From a virus: a DNA stretch of 25,608 nt. The position numbers and the translations under genes were made by a program. The DNA is taken from positions 1 through 25,608 of IMG/VR virus record IMGVR_UViG_3300017749_002349; one strand, 5' to 3'. Each line of letters begins with the position of its first letter. Within the stretch, counting starts at the first letter, position 1. Below are positions 14,192-25,372 of this stretch, piece by piece. The notes under the pieces were generated by a model, which was not told the DNA's origin, did no database searches, and saw nothing but the letters and a program-made list of their open reading frames with translations.

Positions 14192-17100
14192 ATGCCAGAA
14201 AAAACTGATTTAAATATAGCACCGTATTACGATGACTTTTCGGAAGATAAGAAATTCAATAAAGTTCTTTTTAGAGCGGGTCGTCCATTACAGTCTAGAG
14301 AACTAACTCAAACACAATCCATATTACAAAATCAAATTGAAAGATTTGGTTCTCATATGTTTGAAGAGGGGTCTTTAGTCACTGGTGCAGAATCAGATGT
14401 AGATTTAGAAATATTTTATGTAAAGGTAAATTCTGCAAACCCCAATTCAAATGGTTCTGCAAATGTTGAAGACTATAGAACAACATTTCATAATAAATTT
14501 GTAAGAGGTAAATCTTCGGGTGTTGTTGGTAAAGTATTCACTTCAAGTGAAGAAACAACTGATGATGCAATAACATTGTTTGTCAAATTTCATTCACAGG
14601 GAACAGATTCAAATAACTCAGTAGTTTTTTATTCAGGTGAAGAATTACAAGAGTGTACATTAGGTGAAGATGGAACAGTCACTGTAAACAGTGCTAATAA
14701 TAATGAGTTTACAATTAAACCTAAAACAGATAGTCCAGTTGGTCGTTCTTCAATTGCAAGTATATCAGAAGGTATCATATTTGCCAGAGGATTCTTTTGT
14801 AAGGTTGATGCACAAACATTAATTTTAGAAAAGTATTCAGGTAAACCAACATACAGAGTAGGTCTAACAATTGCAGAAAGTCTGTTATCTTCTGCAGATG
14901 ATACAACTTTGTTAGATAATTCTTCAGGTACAACAAACGAAAATGCAGCTGGTGCTGATAGACTTAAATTAGATTTTACACTATCTAAGTATACACTTGA
15001 TACTGCTGATGATGTGGACTTCGTAGAACTTGTCAGGGTTAATCAGGGTATCATAGAATTAAAAATCACTAGACCGATATACAATGAGATAGAAAACTCA
15101 ATGGCACGAAGAACATTCGATGCAAATGGTGATTTTGTTGTAAGACAATTTACACATAGTTTAAGAGAACACTTAGACGACACTACAAACAGAGGATACT
15201 ATACTTCAACAAATGGCGGAGATGTAGATAAATTTGTAATGCAAGTATCGCCTGGTAAAGCATATGTTAAAGGATATGAAATAGACAAGATTGGAACAAC
15301 ACCAATACCTTTCAATAAGGCAAGGTCTACAGTCACACTAAACAACACAAACACTCCAGTTAGACTTGGAAACAAATTAAGAATTACAAATGTTCACTCC
15401 TTACCTGAGTTTGGTAATGAGAGTGGAGATGCAAGTATATCACCATTTAAAGAAGTCACACTTTGGGATACTACAATATCAAGTGACGGAACAGAACCTA
15501 CAAGTGGAAAGATTGGTTTTGCAAGATTAAGAAACATAGATTTACAAAGTGGTACTGCATCTTCAAATGAATATGATGCAAATTCTGTATGGAACTTATA
15601 CTTATTTGACATTAAAATGCTAACAAAACTAAGTGGTACACTTAGTGGAACATTTACAGAAGGTGACCAAGTAGTTGGTGGAACTTCAGGTGCAACTGGT
15701 ATTGTTTCATATACTGCAAGTGGTCAGTTATATATTCATGACGTAGTAGGAACATTCGTAGTTGGTGATGCAATTACAACTAATGGTACAACTAGTGGAA
15801 CAACAACAGTCACTGCTGTAAGAAACTACAACATTGACCGTGCAAGAGGTGTATCACAAGACCCTGTAGATGCAAGTTCAACAATATTTACTGCAAATGT
15901 TAAGGTAGACGCTTCTAAAGTTTTATTGGGAACATTGACATTTGGTACTAACACTGCAGTCACTGGTTTTGCAACATCATTCACAACAGAATTAAAAGAA
16001 GGTGATTTTATAGTAAACCCTGCAAGTGGTCAATCACTAATAGTTGCAAGTGTCACTGATGACACTAACCTTGTACTCTCAAGTGCATCTTCAAGTGCAT
16101 ATACAGGTAATGTCACTAGAAATCGTGCAACTTTATATAACCAAGACCAAACTGCTTCTATATTTTCATGGCCAAGAGACTGGGTAAAAACACATTCATG
16201 TGATTCTATTCAAGTAAGAAGACAACAAGTGGTTGATGTATCAGGTGGTTCATTTACTATATCTACAGGTTCAAACGCAACCTTCGGTGCATTAAATACC
16301 GATAACTTTACAATTGCAGTTGTAAAGGCTTCTACAGATGGAAGTGCATATGATTTAGGAGACCTTTTAAACATAGAAGACTTAACAGGAACTGCAGCTT
16401 CAGATGGTGGTTCAGGTCAAACACTTACTAAATCAATTGCAAACAATAATGGTGCAAAACTTAAAATAACATTTACAGTCAATAGAACAAACCCAGCTTC
16501 TAGAAATAAGACATTGAGACAATCAAGATTACTTGGTGTTGAAAGTGCAAGAAGTGCTGGTGGGTTCTATGGAACTGCATATGATGATAAAGAAATTACA
16601 CTAGGTGTTTCAGACGTTCATAAGATTCATGCAATATATGAAGGAGTAGGAGGAACAACACCTCTACCACCTTCTTCATATTTCTCAGTAGATAGTGGAA
16701 CCTTCCAAGTCTATGAAACAATAGTAGGACAGACTTCAGACGCACGTGCAATTCTTATTACATATAGTGGTTCACTTTCAACTTCATATTATAGAATGGT
16801 ATCAGGTACATTTACAGAAGGTGAAAGTATTGTCGGTCAGACTTCACTTGCAGTCGCAACAATTACTAGTGTATCACAAGGTTCACCCGATATCAAGTCT
16901 AGATTCTTCTTTGACAATGGACAAAGAGATGGTTTCTATGACCTTGCAAAAATTACAAGAAAGGTTGGAGAACCAGTTCCTTCAGGAAAGGTATTAATTG
17001 TATTCGATTACTTCACTTCAGATAGTGGAGATTTCTTTGATGTTGAATCATATGACTCTATACCATATCAAGACATTCCAGTATACTCTCCAAGTAGAGT

Positions 17101-20100
17101 AGATTTAGGTGGTTTAGAGCCTGATGGAACATTTGAACTTTCAGACGCAGTTGACTTTAGACCAGTTGTAGGACAAATTATTGGTACTTCAACATTTGGA
17201 ACAACGAACACACAAGACCCAACCAACCCAGTGAACTTATCACATAGTACAGAGGGTGCTGTTTATGCACCATTTGGATATGATACTGGTAGAGATTTTG
17301 GTTCTTCTAGAACTGGTATATCATCTACTGGTGCAAGTGCAAACGATACCCCAGTGACAGGTTCAAGTGTAGTTGGTGACATATCTTTCTATGTTGGTAG
17401 AATTGATAAAGTATTTTTACATAAGTCAGGTTCATTCCAAACTTCTTCAGGTATTCCTGCACTATCGCCAACCAAACCAAAGGCAATAGACGATGCAATA
17501 GAATTATTTGAAGTTCAGATTCCTGCATATACAAAGAATTTAAAAAATATAAGAGTCAGAACACAAGACCATAGAAGATTTACAATGAAAGATATCGGTA
17601 AAATCAATAACCGTGTCACAAACTTAGAACGAATTACTGCATTATCTTTATTAGAAAGAGATACACAAACAAAACAAATTTTAGACGCAGACGGATTCGA
17701 TAGATTTAAATCAGGATTCTTAGTAGATAACTTTAGAGGTCATAGAGTTGGTGATGTAAATCACCCCGACTATCAAAATAGTGTAGATACTAAACTTGGT
17801 GCAATGAGACCTAAGTCTTATTCACAATTCTTTGACATTGAGTTTAATAGTGTATTGTCATCAAACTTCCAAAAGACTGGAGACTTAATTACTTTACCTT
17901 ATACACCTGCAACATATGTAAATCAAGATAAGGCCTCAAGAACAATTAATGTTAATCCATATCATGTATTTAATTTCTTTGGAACAGTTAAGTTATCACC
18001 CGAAACAGATATATGGAATGATACAGAACAATTACCCGAAGTAAGAATTAACAGAGAAGGAAACTTTGATGCAGTTCTTGCTGAAAATACAAACTCACTA
18101 GGAACAGTTTGGAACTCATGGCAGACAACATGGGTTGGTGAACCTAACGTAGTATCAACAGAAGTGCAGGCCACTTCTAATGGTTCTTGGAGTGGAGACC
18201 CAGCACAAGGTGGTGAATGGGTTGCAGGGTTATCCGTCACAAGAGAAGTCACTGAAACTGTAGAAACACAAACAAGAACAGGTGTGACAACAAGTGTTGT
18301 AGAAGACTTTGTAGAAACAAGAAACGATAGAGTTGTAAGTATATCAATAGTACCTTTCATGAGGTCTAGAACTATTGAGATAGATGCAACCAACTTAAAA
18401 CCAAATACAAACCACTATTTCTTCTTTGACGGAATACGAGTTGATAAATTTACTAAACCATTTAGTACAACATATTCACAAGACGGTGGAATCACAACTA
18501 CATCAGAATGTAAATCAGACGGTAATGGTAGACTTCGTGCATACTTTGAATTACCTAATAATAATGTACAAAGATTCCCAACAGGACAAAGAGAATTAAG
18601 ATTAACTTCTAGTTATTATGATTTAACAAATCCAGGCTCACAAGCGAGTGGTGTCTATCAAGCACAAGGTTTATTACAATCTAACCAAACAGAGATAACA
18701 TCTACAAGAAACGGTAGAGTAATATTAGAAAGAACTAATGGTTCTAGACAAATTACTAGAAGTGGTGAAAGAATAAATGCACAAGTATTTGATACCGTGT
18801 CTCCACCAGTACCACCAGTGCCAGAATTACCTGTAATACCTGAGATTATACAAGACCCTGTACCAATACCAGTACCTCCACCATTCATTGCGGCACCATT
18901 GCCACCATTGGTTGAGCCAGAACCATTTATTGCACCTCCAGTATTTATTCCTACAACAAGACAAATACTTGATATACCTGATAGGATAGAAGACAGAAGA
19001 TTCTTTGATTTCCCATTAGAAAGAGGTTGGGGAGACCCACTTGCACAATCATTCTTGGTTGAAAAATCAGGTGGTATGTTCGTGACATCTTTAGATTTAT
19101 ACTTTGAGAAAAAAGATACAACATTACCAGTTTCTGTTGAAATTAGAAATATGGTAAATGGATATCCAGGCCAAACTGTAATACCTTTCTCAACAGTGAC
19201 TAAGAACCCAGGCGATGTAAACACTTCAACAGACGGTTCTGCAGTGACAACATTTACATTTGAATCTCCAGTTTACTTAGAAGAAGATTTTGAATATTCA
19301 TTTGTTGTTTATTCTAACTCAAATGAGTACACTGCATTCATATCAAGAATGGGTGAGAAAGACCTTGCAACAAGTCAGACAATTTCAGGACAACCATATG
19401 CAGGTTCATTATTTGTGTCTCAGAATGCATCAACATGGACTGCAACACAAGAAGATGACCTTAAGTTCCACATGAAAATTGCAAACTTTGATGTATCTAA
19501 AATACCAGTATTGAAATTTGAAAACAAAGCATTACCAGTTTCTACTTTACAAACAAATCCTGTTGAAACATTCAGTGGTCAACAGTATGTAAAAGTTTAT
19601 AATTATACTCATGGTATGTACACAACAAATTCAAATGTGACTATTGCAGGAGTGACAGGTGATAAAGAAAATGGTGTATTAAATATTGCAACACCTTCAG
19701 TAAGTGGAACACCTACTAATGGAACATTTAATGTGTCTCTTACTGGTGGAACAGGAACAGGTGCAACTGCAGAATTTACAGTTGCAAGTAATGTTATAAC
19801 TACTTCATACATAACAGACCCAGGCACAGGATATGCAACAACAGATACATTGTCTGCAACAAACTTTGACGGTGGAACTGCAGACTTAACAGTGGGTGTA
19901 GATGTAGTTGGTGATACACTAGGTGGAGTTCCAGTGGCTGCAATCAATCAAACATTTACTGCAGTTGCAAATATGGAAATAGATTCATTTACAGTAATCC
20001 CCGATATATCTAGTTATGATGTTAAAACAACATACGCATCGAATGACTCAACAGTTGGTGGTGGAGAAAACGCAACTTCAACTAGAAACTATTACTATGA

Positions 20101-20845
20101 TACACTGCATACATTGATTCCAAGTTTAAATTACAACATGACTAGAATTAGTGCAAGTGTATTAACAACACCTATGGATTCGCCTGAAGGATATAGTAAT
20201 GGAACTGCATACACTAAAAACACAACAAGTAAGTTTATCACATTAAATGATAATGTGTTCTTTGATTCACCAAGTGTAGTTGCATCTCCATTAAACGAAA
20301 CTAATGAGATGTCTTCAGAGAAATCATTTACATGTACACTTCAATTACAATCTGTAAACGGAAATGTTTCACCAGTAATTGATGTTGGAACAATAGGTGC
20401 AATAGGTATTTCAAATAGAATTAATAATATTGATAGTTCTTCAGATGTACAAACAGGAACAGTCTATACTCCTTCAACAGAACCTGATGGAGATAATAAT
20501 GCAATGGTATATTGTACAAGAAAGGTTAATTTAAAAACACCTGCAACAACACTTAAAGTTATTTCAGATGTGTTTAGACCACCAACAACAGAAATTGAAG
20601 TGTTATACAAAGTTCTTAAGAATGATGAATCAACACCATTTGATGATTTAAACTGGGAGTATTTCAATACAACAGGAACGCCTGATACAACTGTAGAGGC
20701 AGACGCAAGAAACTTTAAAGAATATGAGTGGACTGTTGATGACCTACCCGAGTTTAGTGCATTCGCAATTAAGATTGTTGGTAAAGGAACAAATAGTTCA
20801 GTAGTACCTATGGTATCTGCATTAAGATGTTTAGGTCTTGCATAA
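14192..20845 (+). CDS. Giant DUF4815-type baseplate/tail structural protein
   Basis: This 2217-residue protein starts MPEKTDLNIAPYYDDFSEDK, then FRAGRPLQSRELTQTQSILQ and NQIERFGSHMFEEGS. This N-terminal signature is that of large DUF4815 virion proteins of marine T4-like phages. Its place after gp8, where T4 has genes 9 and 10, suggests it takes the role of the outer wedge/fibre-socket proteins; that is inference. Beta modules with GEx(V/I)VG(G/Q)TS motifs lie near residues 483-545 and 840-890. A proline-rich hinge lies at about 1537-1590. After the hinge, DPLAQSFLVEKSGGMFVTSL begins a jelly-roll-like domain (about 1610-1730). A glycine-rich repeat lies near 1846-1915, and the C-terminal strands end VPMVSALRCLGLA. 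There is no enzymatic motif. The stop codon overlaps the next ATG by one base. Confidence 0.85.
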   Translation: MPEKTDLNIAPYYDDFSEDKKFNKVLFRAGRPLQSRELTQTQSILQNQIERFGSHMFEEGSLVTGAESDVDLEIFYVKVNSANPNSNGSANVEDYRTTFHNKFVRGKSSGVVGKVFTSSEETTDDAITLFVKFHSQGTDSNNSVVFYSGEELQECTLGEDGTVTVNSANNNEFTIKPKTDSPVGRSSIASISEGIIFARGFFCKVDAQTLILEKYSGKPTYRVGLTIAESLLSSADDTTLLDNSSGTTNENAAGADRLKLDFTLSKYTLDTADDVDFVELVRVNQGIIELKITRPIYNEIENSMARRTFDANGDFVVRQFTHSLREHLDDTTNRGYYTSTNGGDVDKFVMQVSPGKAYVKGYEIDKIGTTPIPFNKARSTVTLNNTNTPVRLGNKLRITNVHSLPEFGNESGDASISPFKEVTLWDTTISSDGTEPTSGKIGFARLRNIDLQSGTASSNEYDANSVWNLYLFDIKMLTKLSGTLSGTFTEGDQVVGGTSGATGIVSYTASGQLYIHDVVGTFVVGDAITTNGTTSGTTTVTAVRNYNIDRARGVSQDPVDASSTIFTANVKVDASKVLLGTLTFGTNTAVTGFATSFTTELKEGDFIVNPASGQSLIVASVTDDTNLVLSSASSSAYTGNVTRNRATLYNQDQTASIFSWPRDWVKTHSCDSIQVRRQQVVDVSGGSFTISTGSNATFGALNTDNFTIAVVKASTDGSAYDLGDLLNIEDLTGTAASDGGSGQTLTKSIANNNGAKLKITFTVNRTNPASRNKTLRQSRLLGVESARSAGGFYGTAYDDKEITLGVSDVHKIHAIYEGVGGTTPLPPSSYFSVDSGTFQVYETIVGQTSDARAILITYSGSLSTSYYRMVSGTFTEGESIVGQTSLAVATITSVSQGSPDIKSRFFFDNGQRDGFYDLAKITRKVGEPVPSGKVLIVFDYFTSDSGDFFDVESYDSIPYQDIPVYSPSRVDLGGLEPDGTFELSDAVDFRPVVGQIIGTSTFGTTNTQDPTNPVNLSHSTEGAVYAPFGYDTGRDFGSSRTGISSTGASANDTPVTGSSVVGDISFYVGRIDKVFLHKSGSFQTSSGIPALSPTKPKAIDDAIELFEVQIPAYTKNLKNIRVRTQDHRRFTMKDIGKINNRVTNLERITALSLLERDTQTKQILDADGFDRFKSGFLVDNFRGHRVGDVNHPDYQNSVDTKLGAMRPKSYSQFFDIEFNSVLSSNFQKTGDLITLPYTPATYVNQDKASRTINVNPYHVFNFFGTVKLSPETDIWNDTEQLPEVRINREGNFDAVLAENTNSLGTVWNSWQTTWVGEPNVVSTEVQATSNGSWSGDPAQGGEWVAGLSVTREVTETVETQTRTGVTTSVVEDFVETRNDRVVSISIVPFMRSRTIEIDATNLKPNTNHYFFFDGIRVDKFTKPFSTTYSQDGGITTTSECKSDGNGRLRAYFELPNNNVQRFPTGQRELRLTSSYYDLTNPGSQASGVYQAQGLLQSNQTEITSTRNGRVILERTNGSRQITRSGERINAQVFDTVSPPVPPVPELPVIPEIIQDPVPIPVPPPFIAAPLPPLVEPEPFIAPPVFIPTTRQILDIPDRIEDRRFFDFPLERGWGDPLAQSFLVEKSGGMFVTSLDLYFEKKDTTLPVSVEIRNMVNGYPGQTVIPFSTVTKNPGDVNTSTDGSAVTTFTFESPVYLEEDFEYSFVVYSNSNEYTAFISRMGEKDLATSQTISGQPYAGSLFVSQNASTWTATQEDDLKFHMKIANFDVSKIPVLKFENKALPVSTLQTNPVETFSGQQYVKVYNYTHGMYTTNSNVTIAGVTGDKENGVLNIATPSVSGTPTNGTFNVSLTGGTGTGATAEFTVASNVITTSYITDPGTGYATTDTLSATNFDGGTADLTVGVDVVGDTLGGVPVAAINQTFTAVANMEIDSFTVIPDISSYDVKTTYASNDSTVGGGENATSTRNYYYDTLHTLIPSLNYNMTRISASVLTTPMDSPEGYSNGTAYTKNTTSKFITLNDNVFFDSPSVVASPLNETNEMSSEKSFTCTLQLQSVNGNVSPVIDVGTIGAIGISNRINNIDSSSDVQTGTVYTPSTEPDGDNNAMVYCTRKVNLKTPATTLKVISDVFRPPTTEIEVLYKVLKNDESTPFDDLNWEYFNTTGTPDTTVEADARNFKEYEWTVDDLPEFSAFAIKIVGKGTNSSVVPMVSALRCLGLA

Positions 20846-22844: not shown

Positions 22845-24098
22845 ATGTCTGATGAAATTTATGTAAATATAGGAACTTCGTTCCAACAACCCTACCAAGG
22901 ACAAGGACTTGCACAAGGTCGTACACCTGTTATAGCACAATATATTGCAAGAAAACCTGCAAATGCACAAACACCTTTTACATATCAAAATAGACAACCT
23001 GCAAGTGCAAGACAACCCAGTTCTGCACAAACACCTTATATTGCAAATAGACAGACCCCTTCCATAGTTCAGGCAACTGCAAATTATCCATATATTGCAT
23101 CTGCACAACAGACATATCCTTACATTGCAAATGCACAAACTACTACTCAAAATACTGGAAGAGCGCCTATAATATATCAGGCAACAGGAAGAACGCCATT
23201 TACATATGCAAGACAAGGACAAACACCATATAGTGCAACTGGAAGACTACCTTCTACATATGAAACACAAGGTCAAACACCTTACAGTTTTCAACAGAAT
23301 TATCAACAAACATATGAAACACAAGGACAACAACCTTATACATTTAATGATACTGGTCAACAACCTTCTATATATCAAGCTCAGGGAACACAACCATATA
23401 GTTATCAACAGAATTATCAGACCCCAACTATATACACTGCACAAGTAAGTACCAATAGTCAAGCAACATATCAACACCCGACTACATATCAACATCAGGC
23501 ACAGATAACTTACAGACACCCTACTAATTCTCAGAGTGTATTTCAAACTACAGTACAAGCACAAACAACGTATCAGCACCCTTATACAGCTCAAACTCCT
23601 GCTTCTACAATTGGAAGACAACCTACAACATACACTTATCCCGACCCTGCAGTTTGGGGCCCGTATCCAGTGACAGGTGGTTTATTGTCTAGTTATTCGT
23701 ACTATTATGAAGGATTTAGAAGTCAAAATCCAGTTGCGCCAGTGCAATATGGAGATGCATTTGGTTCAAGTCCTTGGCCTGCGATTCCTTCAAGTACTCC
23801 AGGCTATCAATATATTCAACGACAATATTGGTTGAATAGACCAAGTAATTCTACTTTATCGGGAACACTGAATCTTGGAAACTTTGCACCTACAATAACA
23901 TTTAGTACTCAATTTCAATATCTTCAAATTATTAGTGGTGGAACCACTACAAATATACCTTATGCAACCTTTACGCCAAATGGTTCGCCTATGACACCAG
24001 GCAATGCATTGTGGAGTGGAAGTATGCCTATTGTCACATCACAATTCCCAACTCATATAATTTTTAACGGTAATAGCGCCACATTAGCATTATTTTAA
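22845..24098 (+). CDS. Pro/Tyr/Gln repeat protein with strict two-residue alternation
   Basis: This 417-residue protein starts MSDEIYVNIGTSFQQ, one base after the preceding stop. Residues 16-268 are low-complexity units, most often ten residues long with consensus P-Y/S-x-Y/F-x-A-x-x-Q-Q/T (for example PYTFNDTGQQ, PSIYQAQGTQ, PYSYQQNYQT). All 26 prolines in this span are at even positions. All tyrosines and phenylalanines, and nearly all alanines and glycines, are at odd positions. The region has one Lys, three acidic residues, no Cys and no Trp. From about 269 the pattern ends and a non-repetitive domain follows (WGPYPVTGGLLSSYSYYYEG; later GTLNLGNFAPTITFSTQFQY; end NGNSATLALF). I do not recognise a described family. 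Position among fibre genes suggests a fibre or adhesin, and the alternation suggests extended beta structure. Confidence 0.85.
   Translation: MSDEIYVNIGTSFQQPYQGQGLAQGRTPVIAQYIARKPANAQTPFTYQNRQPASARQPSSAQTPYIANRQTPSIVQATANYPYIASAQQTYPYIANAQTTTQNTGRAPIIYQATGRTPFTYARQGQTPYSATGRLPSTYETQGQTPYSFQQNYQQTYETQGQQPYTFNDTGQQPSIYQAQGTQPYSYQQNYQTPTIYTAQVSTNSQATYQHPTTYQHQAQITYRHPTNSQSVFQTTVQAQTTYQHPYTAQTPASTIGRQPTTYTYPDPAVWGPYPVTGGLLSSYSYYYEGFRSQNPVAPVQYGDAFGSSPWPAIPSSTPGYQYIQRQYWLNRPSNSTLSGTLNLGNFAPTITFSTQFQYLQIISGGTTTNIPYATFTPNGSPMTPGNALWSGSMPIVTSQFPTHIIFNGNSATLALF
22890..23648 (+). repeat. Pro/Tyr/Gln repeat tract, units always an even number of codons
   Basis: The spacings between successive prolines across residues 16-268 are 12, 10, 6, 8, 6, 6, 8, 10, 10, 16, 10, 10, 8, 10, 18, 10, 10, 10, 18, 14, 20, 6, 8, 6 and 2. 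All are even, so unit lengths are multiples of six bases. Copies are diverged at DNA level, but short words such as ATTGCAAATGCACAA and ACACAAGGACAA recur. Confidence 0.85.
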
Positions 24099-24111: not shown

Positions 24112-25020
24112 ATGGCAATAGGACAAACACAACAACCGTATATTTTTCAATATCAGACTCCATATACATTACAGGTCACGTCTCAACAACCTTATAGTTT
24201 TCAACAACCTACAAGGCAACCAGTAAATGTTCAGAATATTAGACAACAACCATATTCTTTTACTGCAAATAAACAAACCACTGCACAATATCCACATATT
24301 ATTCAAGTGTCATATCAAGCAAATAAACAAACAAGTGGGACTAGACCTATTGCAACTGCAGTAAGAAATTATTCATATAGTGCAAACAAACAAACTCCAT
24401 ATCCATTTATTAATAGTGGTCAGATAGCATACCCATACACTGCAAGAAGACCTGCAACTACACCAGTTGCTCAGGCACAACAACCTTATCCGTACATTGC
24501 TGATGCACAAACACCGTATCCATATATTGCACAATCAACATATCCTTACATTGCAAATGCACAACAACCATACCCATATGAAGCAAATGCACAACAACCA
24601 TACCCATACATATCTCAAACTCCAAGTACGTATGCAAGACAGGGTAGAACACCATTTACATATAACCGTCAGGCATCATACAGTTTTGAAACACCTGCAA
24701 GAACTCCAAGTACATATGTGAATCAACAACCTAGTATTTACCAACACCCTGTAATCTATAGAAATCCTTATATTGCAAATGCTAGACAACCTTCAACATA
24801 TCAACATGCATATCAATCACCTTATAGTTTCCAACAAAATTATACATTCCAACAACCATATACAACAACTAGAACGGTTGGCCCGATTGCAAAAGTTAAA
24901 GGTGTATACAGAAATAATGCTGGAAGTGTAGAGAAGGTTGACGAGATTTATGTCAATGATGGTGGAACTTTAGAGAAAATTCACCAATCAGTTCCAACTG
25001 CTCAATTCAATAAGGGTTAA
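24112..25020 (+). CDS. Second Pro/Tyr/Gln repeat protein with EIYVN-type C-terminal motif
   Basis: This 302-residue protein starts MAIGQTQQPYIFQYQ and carries the same repeat type as its upstream neighbour over residues 9-249, with near-perfect decapeptides at 125-166 (PYPYIADAQT, PYPYEANAQQ). Prolines are at odd positions from 9 to 79, at even positions from 96 to 118, and at odd positions again from 125 to 249. Tyrosines take the opposite parity throughout. The C-terminus is different: VKGVYRNNAGSVEKV then DEIYVNDGGTLEKIHQSV, two tandem copies of a motif I associate with phage tail and fibre proteins. The DEIYVN string is also at the N-terminus of the upstream repeat protein. It lacks the globular C-terminal domain of that protein. 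No characterised homologue is known to me; a fibre or surface-adhesion role is inference. Confidence 0.85.
   Translation: MAIGQTQQPYIFQYQTPYTLQVTSQQPYSFQQPTRQPVNVQNIRQQPYSFTANKQTTAQYPHIIQVSYQANKQTSGTRPIATAVRNYSYSANKQTPYPFINSGQIAYPYTARRPATTPVAQAQQPYPYIADAQTPYPYIAQSTYPYIANAQQPYPYEANAQQPYPYISQTPSTYARQGRTPFTYNRQASYSFETPARTPSTYVNQQPSIYQHPVIYRNPYIANARQPSTYQHAYQSPYSFQQNYTFQQPYTTTRTVGPIAKVKGVYRNNAGSVEKVDEIYVNDGGTLEKIHQSVPTAQFNKG
24136..24858 (+). repeat. Second Pro/Tyr/Gln repeat tract
   Basis: The tract covers residues 9-249. Proline and tyrosine hold opposite parity, with a one-residue phase shift between residues 79 and 81 and a reversing shift at 118-120. Units of ten residues dominate between 125 and 170. 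Confidence 0.82.
24553..24608 (+). repeat. Exact 26-base direct repeat at 30-base spacing
   Basis: A 26-base sequence starting GCAAATGCACAACAACC is present identically at 24553-24578 and 24583-24608. The 30-base period equals one ten-residue protein unit, coding for ANAQQPYPY in both copies. Identity at DNA level suggests a recent duplication. Confidence 0.9.
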
Positions 25021-25039: not shown

Positions 25040-25372
25040 ATGGCTATACTTGCAAACATATTTATCGACCAAGGTGCTGACTTTTCAATCACTGTAGATG
25101 TCACGGACTCTTCAGGTGATGTATTAAACATGTCAGGATATTCTGCAGCTGCACAAATAAGAAAAACATATTCTTCTGCAACTGCAAGTGGAACATTCAC
25201 ATGCACCGTACAAGAAGCGAGTGGGCAAGTGACCATGGCATTAACAGATACACAAACAACAGCATTAGAAGCTGGTAGATATGTTTACGATATGACAGTC
25301 ACCAGTGGTGGAGGAAACAAAACTAGAGTTGTTGAAGGACAGGCAATTGTGACGCCAGGAGTGACAAGATGA
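25040..25372 (+). CDS. Small conserved phage structural protein
   Basis: This 110-residue protein starts MAILANIFIDQGADFSITVD. It continues with VTDSSGDVLNMSGYSAAAQI, then RKTYSS, VTMALTDTQTTALEAGRYVY, and ends TRVVEGQAIVTPGVTR. This is a beta-sandwich-like sequence I know from many marine T4-like phage genomes near tail fibre genes, of unknown exact role. The pattern IDQG.DF...V.V.D..G...(D/N)(L/M)(S/T)GY..A.QIR...SS resembles baseplate upper-protein-type beta domains, which suggests it joins a fibre to the tail; that is inference. It is preceded directly by a late promoter. Its TGA overlaps the next ATG (ATGA), coupling it to the fibre-like gene downstream. Confidence 0.8.
   Translation: MAILANIFIDQGADFSITVDVTDSSGDVLNMSGYSAAAQIRKTYSSATASGTFTCTVQEASGQVTMALTDTQTTALEAGRYVYDMTVTSGGGNKTRVVEGQAIVTPGVTR

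Follow-up and report, generated by a model that had tools for sequence, protein, structure and literature searches.

The tail fibres of phages T4 and T5 (gp34, gp37 and pb1) are homotrimers whose shafts are built as beta-helices, beta-prisms or coiled coils (PMC5537660, PMC12750041). The likely fibre described here resembles them in its conserved base, repetitive shaft, variable tip and position in a tail-fibre gene region, but its first chain, ORF A, has no similarity in PDB, Pfam or PHROGs. The nearest idea is the tandem beta-zipper generally known from staphylococcal fibronectin-binding proteins and fibronectin F1 modules (PMC7480013), where the strands added to the folded host modules come from a disordered peptide. 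Extended repeats also seem to pair antiparallel with a partner in our case, as indicated by sequence covariation, but each chain is a repeat tract encoded by one of two neighbouring phage genes. The partner, too, is a tract protein and not a folded module of the F1 type, and the pairing involves a residue code, matched lengths and mirrored indels. Heterodimeric coiled coils likewise join two chains of matched length in a defined register, although they are helical with period 7, whereas here the period is 2 and antiparallel pairing of beta type is indicated. The curli proteins CsgA and CsgB are also repetitive, Gln/Asn-rich and fibre-forming, and many of the phages considered here encode the curli exporter CsgG; however, A contains no curlin repeat and lies at a separate locus, and curli lack the complementarity of two chains. 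A further close system is the host recognition cluster of pelagimyophages, which runs from a VrlC-like baseplate gene to the neck genes (PMC7029224). Our genes occupy this same locus, and the accessible part of that description does not include the tract proteins.

The window, by which we mean the whole 25,608-nucleotide stretch of IMG/VR record IMGVR_UViG_3300017749_002349 that was analysed, contains the following features.

14192..20845, plus strand: 2217-aa baseplate protein at the VrlC position, starting the host recognition cluster (phrog_358; synteny with HTVC008M gp8-VrlC; PMC7029224)
21050..22843, plus strand: 597-aa structural or fibre-like protein, upstream of A (phrog_697, 1.4e-8)
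22845..24098, plus strand: ORF A, 417 aa, with the N-terminal motif MSDEIYVN..., a two-phase tract and a variable C-terminal domain
22872..23648, plus strand: two-residue-parity tract of A, residues 10-268 (parity counts, family HMM)
22959..23282, plus strand: A residues 39-146, ungapped antiparallel complement to B residues 232-125 (i+j constant)
23631..24095, plus strand: variable C-terminal tip domain of A, residues 263-417, putatively receptor-binding and distal (tip comparison)
24112..25020, plus strand: ORF B, 302 aa, the putative partner chain, with tract residues 4-262 and a conserved C-terminal module
24484..24807, plus strand: B residues 125-232, antiparallel partner stretch for A 39-146 (pairing score)
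24859..25017, plus strand: C-terminal module of B, residues 250-302 (alignment; DEIYVN motif)
25040..25372, plus strand: homologue of the L-shaped tail-fibre assembly protein, the gene after B (phrog_1084, 3e-28; phrog_3304, 1.2e-23)

Relatives of the window carry A followed by B past the baseplate genes and a paralogous pair, C followed by D, close to the neck genes. The fibre-gene locus is bounded by the VrlC-like gene and a gp13-like gene and adjoins the homologue of the L-shaped fibre assembly protein. The phages are T4-like, their gp8 being nearest to that of HTVC008M (38%), and of 12 long contigs 10 encode CsgG and none psbA, which fits genomes of pelagimyophage type rather than those of cyanophages. 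In phages with a tip-bearing C, a 95-aa gene (L013:7210-7494) lies between C and D, in a gap of about 320 bp. Directly 3' of D are a glycosyltransferase-8-like protein (a weak match) and two 2OG-Fe(II) oxygenases (L013:8479-12918); such oxygenases are also present in HTVC008M, which is without the fibre.

The initial annotation had claimed a strict two-residue parity in the repeat tract of A, and our recount agrees with it. Counted from the ATG at 22845, residues 10-268 have all 26 prolines at even positions and all 28 tyrosines and six phenylalanines at odd positions; alanine (25 of 26) and glycine (12 of 13) are almost always odd, and the even/odd counts of Gln (39/11), Arg (9/2), Asn (9/2) and Ile (10/2) lean the other way. 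The mutual information between residue and parity is 0.469 bits, against 0.052 +/- 0.016 in the shuffles that the annotation had proposed as a comparison, none of 2000 being as high. Neither first- nor second-order Markov nulls equal this value; a third-order null does so in 167 of 2000 cases, because it reproduces the repeat words themselves. In 259-aa stretches of the other long ORFs of the window the value never exceeds 0.110, and the parity of A ends near residue 268, the non-repetitive C-terminal domain (269-417) having prolines in both phases (7/9 even/odd). Cys and Trp are absent from the tract, as had been claimed, but the tract is not simply uncharged: 11 Arg, 4 His and 1 Lys stand beside 2 Glu and 2 Asp.

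The parity rule is not peculiar to the window. A search of metagenomic phage proteins, also proposed in the annotation, found it family-wide in hundreds of relatives in marine phages of IMG/VR (A in 42 loci, C in 128 candidate stretches, D in 207, and a more distant dialect in 42 loci). In 85 representatives with 26,938 tract residues, proline is divided 3644:2 between the phases, with 28 register slips, and the longest unbroken parity runs extend to 556 residues. A two-phase HMM fitted on 74 representatives, with phase-specific emissions of 0.27 and 0.000 for proline and 0.001 and 0.216 for tyrosine, was better than a one-phase model by about 6,700 nats. Eighteen representatives outside the fit gave 810:0 for proline, 1:716 for tyrosine and 1:251 for phenylalanine, with zero slips in 5,820 residues. 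The only strong period in the tract spectrum is 2.0 (power 44, the next being 4.6), which is not the period 3 of a collagen-like Gly-X-Y repeat. Beyond these relatives, A had no match in Pfam or PHROG, the curlin repeat PF07012 was found in neither A nor B with Pfam, and a PDB sequence search with profile A1 returned nothing; a PDB match for the N-terminus of C, to a designed barrel, was rejected as spurious. INPHARED tblastn with A, B, the C-terminus of B and the N-terminus of C gave no match, in a search where low-complexity masking may hide repeats, and from the INPHARED searches no cultured phage with these tract proteins is known. They were undetected in the loci and genomes of HTVC008M and Mosig, 18 pattern matches in cellular genomes were all unrelated, and a search of the published literature found such proteins nowhere described.

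The claim that selection rejects odd-length indels is borne out by the family, where distinct indels among relatives are even or odd in a ratio of 1018:23 in the tract and 22:30 outside it, so that odd slips are rare but not nil; L010, for instance, slips by a single residue at alignment column 31. When the tract was defined by composition only and nearest-neighbour pairs were compared, the ratios were 320:27 in the tract and 21 odd to 22 even outside, many of the odd indels lying at glycine-rich ends or in distant-pair comparisons. For lengths 1-3, at which slippage of repeat units is unlikely, two-residue indels outnumber those of one or three residues by 77:2 in the tract, against 13:22 outside. 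The dN/dS of the A tract is 0.18-0.40, with zero prolines lost between the window and five relatives, and by these measures the tract is under purifying selection. It is very unlikely that the tract is simply a disordered, sticky adhesive of low complexity, with parity as a by-product of repeat duplication: the AlphaFold2 monomer model of A alone has low confidence (pLDDT 27.6) and the paralogues have repeat words in common, as such a chain would, but the two-residue indels and the dN/dS values speak against it, and a disordered chain would have no reason to keep a register, to match a partner in reverse order or to mirror its indels.

These last properties concern ORF B, the partner gene. Its composition, like the antiparallel complementarity, length matching, mirrored indels and concerted evolution of tips reported below, lay outside the initial annotation. 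B has the composition and words of A with two register slips (prolines 6/27 even/odd), both odd, near residues ~80 and ~120, 40 residues apart and kept in the clade (L001, L007); they are possibly beta-bulges. Its C-terminal module, with the sequence KVKGVYRNN..DEIYVNDGGTLEKIHQ, has the motif DEIYVN in common with the N-terminus of A, and an antiparallel pair would place these two ends together on the proximal side.

Partner tracts are matched in length. In 18 A/B pairs the spans correlate with r=0.99 and a median difference of 4 aa (258/254, 254/254, 269/268, 199/199 and 172/165, for example), and in 66 C/D pairs ranging from 191 to 556 with r=0.98 and a median difference of 10 aa (246/246, 270/270, 492/494, 552/540); among non-redundant C/D pairs r is 0.996 and 29 of 30 are at most 15 aa apart. 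Some mismatches occur in L055, L057, L060, L086 and L087. These are near-identical contigs with exact repeat-block differences in one partner gene only, probably from repeat collapse in short-read assemblies, and partner-length mismatch may be usable as an assembly check.

Partners are also matched in register when one is read backwards. At a single value of i+j, a median of 90% of the prolines in whichever partner has fewer lie opposite another proline, compared with 0.51 for non-partners and 0.56 for parallel pairing, which has a much weaker register and was rejected. True partners exceeded every non-partner in 34 of 37 cases, and the proline register exceeded all 200 unit-shuffles in 37/37 C/D and 9/15 A/B pairs. 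With D reversed against C, proline faces proline at constant i+j at 41/41 positions in L106, 44/44 in L103, 45/45 in L113, 51/52 in L071 and 70/73 in L076. The facing words (PYIANAQQP with PFTYQNRQP, or PYPYIANAQEP with PFTYARQGQTP) follow a symmetric code, with P-P, R-I/I-R and Q-T/T-Q on the proline face and R-H/H-R, F-Q/Q-F, V-N/N-V, N-S/S-N, Y-A/A-Y and Y-G/G-Y on the aromatic face, while F-F, Y-V, I-P and R-R are avoided at register. A pair matrix learned on C/D and then applied to other phages recognises their A/B pairs. Scored on non-proline pairs only, seven A/B pairs gave +0.45 to +0.74 bits in register, dropping to about -1 out of it.

In the window itself the two tract spans are equal, and A residues 39-146 pair with B residues 232-125 over 108 residues without a gap, scoring 62.8 against a maximum of 42.1 for 200 unit-shuffled versions of B and 17.9 for parallel pairing. 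Non-proline pairs in this stretch give +0.71 bits, and every even shift within 20 gives -0.10 or less. In the distal ~110 residues of this pair no register was detected, also with a second word dialect, and in the clade of the window (L001-L010) the single-register proline count was not above shuffles (z 0.8-2.7). As the register is clear only for A 39-146 and B 232-125, the proposal that A and B pair over their full length draws on the equal spans (254 each) and on such relatives as L014, L019, L026, L136 and L157.

Two other readings bear on this complementarity. Three parallel A chains could form a homo-oligomeric extended fibre, a beta bundle with an aromatic core, with B in a separate bundle. 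Phage fibres known so far are usually trimers, and parity and even indels alone would fit such a bundle, but we think it unlikely, as it leaves unexplained the length match of neighbouring genes, the antiparallel proline register, the mirrored indels and the self-complementary fusions. That the antiparallel relation is historical, arising at the DNA level by inverted duplication, antisense coding or gene conversion and not physical, is hardly conceivable. The partner genes adjoin and draw on a common stock of words, but an inverted copy is a reverse complement, in which the CCN codons of proline become NGG (Arg, Gly or Trp); no mutation writes a protein backwards in sense, and gene conversion runs in the parallel order, in which the register is much weaker.

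Changes in length are mirrored between partners. Between L054 and L095, C differs by +26, -14 and +16 at 320, 382 and 460, and D by +26, -14 and +16 at 164, 89 and 23, where positions 166, 104 and 26 are expected. The net length change of C and D is identical in 50 of 90 comparisons, and 383 of 906 indels have a mirror partner, defined as an equal-sized indel no more than 40 residues from the mirror point, against a shuffled mean of 57 and maximum of 81, in comparisons that share sequences and are non-independent. Many of the indel mismatches are between nearly identical contigs whole repeat blocks apart (44 or 88 aa), a pattern suggestive of repeats collapsed during assembly.

Some phages have a single gene for a chain that starts with the N-terminus of A and closes with the C-terminus of B, and in these fusions the C/D-trained matrix places a hairpin, centred mid-protein. 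For A/B pairs of other phages and fusions taken together, hairpin scores of 60-148, against at most 21 for shuffled sequences, were obtained in 10 of 19, among them the fusions L143 (148), L020 (142) and L028 (130; dipeptide shuffles up to 21). With the proline register as sole criterion, 17 of 24 single-gene versions, a different dialect and fused C-D genes (L145, z=9.4) included, score above all or nearly all of 200 unit shuffles, while six or seven fail this test, among them L029, L031, L033, L038, L133 and L156.

Of the geometries offered in the initial annotation, an extended chain whose two faces differ chemically is supported, and so is a beta ribbon; a beta-helix or a cross-beta stack of a single protein is not, because units of 6, 8 and 10 residues are freely mixed and a partner chain accounts for the pattern. 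None of the results calls for prion-like or silk-like behaviour. We consider it extremely unlikely that each protein folds alone as a beta-solenoid or amyloid-like cross-beta structure. The Gln/Asn/Tyr-rich composition and the curli exporter in 10/12 long contigs would suit such a fold, but the mixture of units within one chain and parity runs of up to 556 residues are unlike stacked coils, the complementarity of partners is left unexplained, and a protein with curlin repeats already adjoins CsgG. A and B as curli substrates were rejected because CsgG is also found in HTVC008M, where no tract protein was detected. The protein beside CsgG (L264:747-1484, minus strand; L265:2154-2876, plus strand; L266:2225-2944, plus strand) looks secreted, with PF07012 matches in two of three tested (E=1.3e-4 and 0.0032) and CsgF and a FecR-domain protein adjoining; it is a candidate for the curli subunit that PMC7029224 reports as missing in pelagimyophages.

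We favour a two-chain reading based on sequence statistics, namely parity, even indels, length matching, antiparallel complementarity, mirrored indels, hairpin fusions and tip concordance. It is likely that A with B, and C with D, would form a giant two-stranded antiparallel beta-ribbon fibre encoded in the tail-fibre cluster. It is likely, too, that the ribbon would be duplex-like, two different polypeptides that complement each other at every residue, in antiparallel order, along 170-550 residues through a simple symmetric code, with compensatory mirrored indels, serving abundant marine phages as length-programmable host-recognition fibres encoded by gene pairs and single-gene hairpins. Antiparallel strand pairs alternate between hydrogen-bonded and non-bonded positions, and proline, without an NH, fits the non-bonded ones only. 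Period 2 implies an extended chain and constant i+j antiparallel neighbours, and proline of one phase always facing proline matches what sheet geometry would predict for a ribbon. The alternating faces, the one-phase proline (3644:2) and the constant i+j of an antiparallel ribbon are all found, and they point to a putative hydrogen-bond assignment. Even-phase residues would occupy non-hydrogen-bonded pairs with their NH outward, where alone proline is tolerated, and odd-phase Tyr, Phe, Ala and Gly would make the inter-strand hydrogen bonds and form one aromatic/small face, large residues opposite small. An odd indel in one strand would shift proline into bonded positions.

In this fibre, chain A would run fully extended outward from the phage and chain B would return antiparallel alongside it, giving a ribbon that spans the whole tract, about 250 residues here and as many as about 550 in relatives. 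At 0.33 nm per residue, the A tract would measure about 85 nm when fully extended. Close to the phage, the N-terminus of A would meet the C-terminal module of B, and in this clade the variable C-terminal domain of A would sit at the distal end. C with D would be a second, longer pair of the same build, and in some phages one gene would provide both strands as a giant hairpin.

A and B would presumably be virion fibres, and the C-terminal domain of A probably recognises the host. Within one phage, the tips of A and of its paralogue C are 87-96% identical in six of seven phages (44% in L010), against mostly 23-60% between clades, whereas the A and C tracts of one phage are 35-47% alike, with no such concordance. 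This is what two fibres aimed at one receptor would show. Such homogenisation of the tip between a phage's two paralogous fibre genes is seen in L003/L083, L004/L065, L006/L013, L007/L094 and similar cases. The AlphaFold2 model of the tip is of low confidence (pLDDT 47.6), and Foldseek with this model found no structural match. By eye, the C-termini of C-type proteins in L096, L103, L106, L113, L050 and L051 are TFFANGMLVHN-like, as in Hint/intein C-termini, which suggests that the fibre may be auto-processed at its distal end.

The kind of protein fibre proposed here seems not to have been described before. If the proposal is right, it would add a new fibre architecture together with a pairing principle, strand recognition through a short residue code along hundreds of residues, which covary as clearly as RNA stems do, and designers would have a natural programmable beta-zipper. 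The parity rule would become a direct, testable structural prediction. For the phages, paired even-length indels would tune the length of a fibre of ~85-180 nm made from small genes, and a putative receptor-binding tip would be identified for a widespread group of uncultured marine phages.
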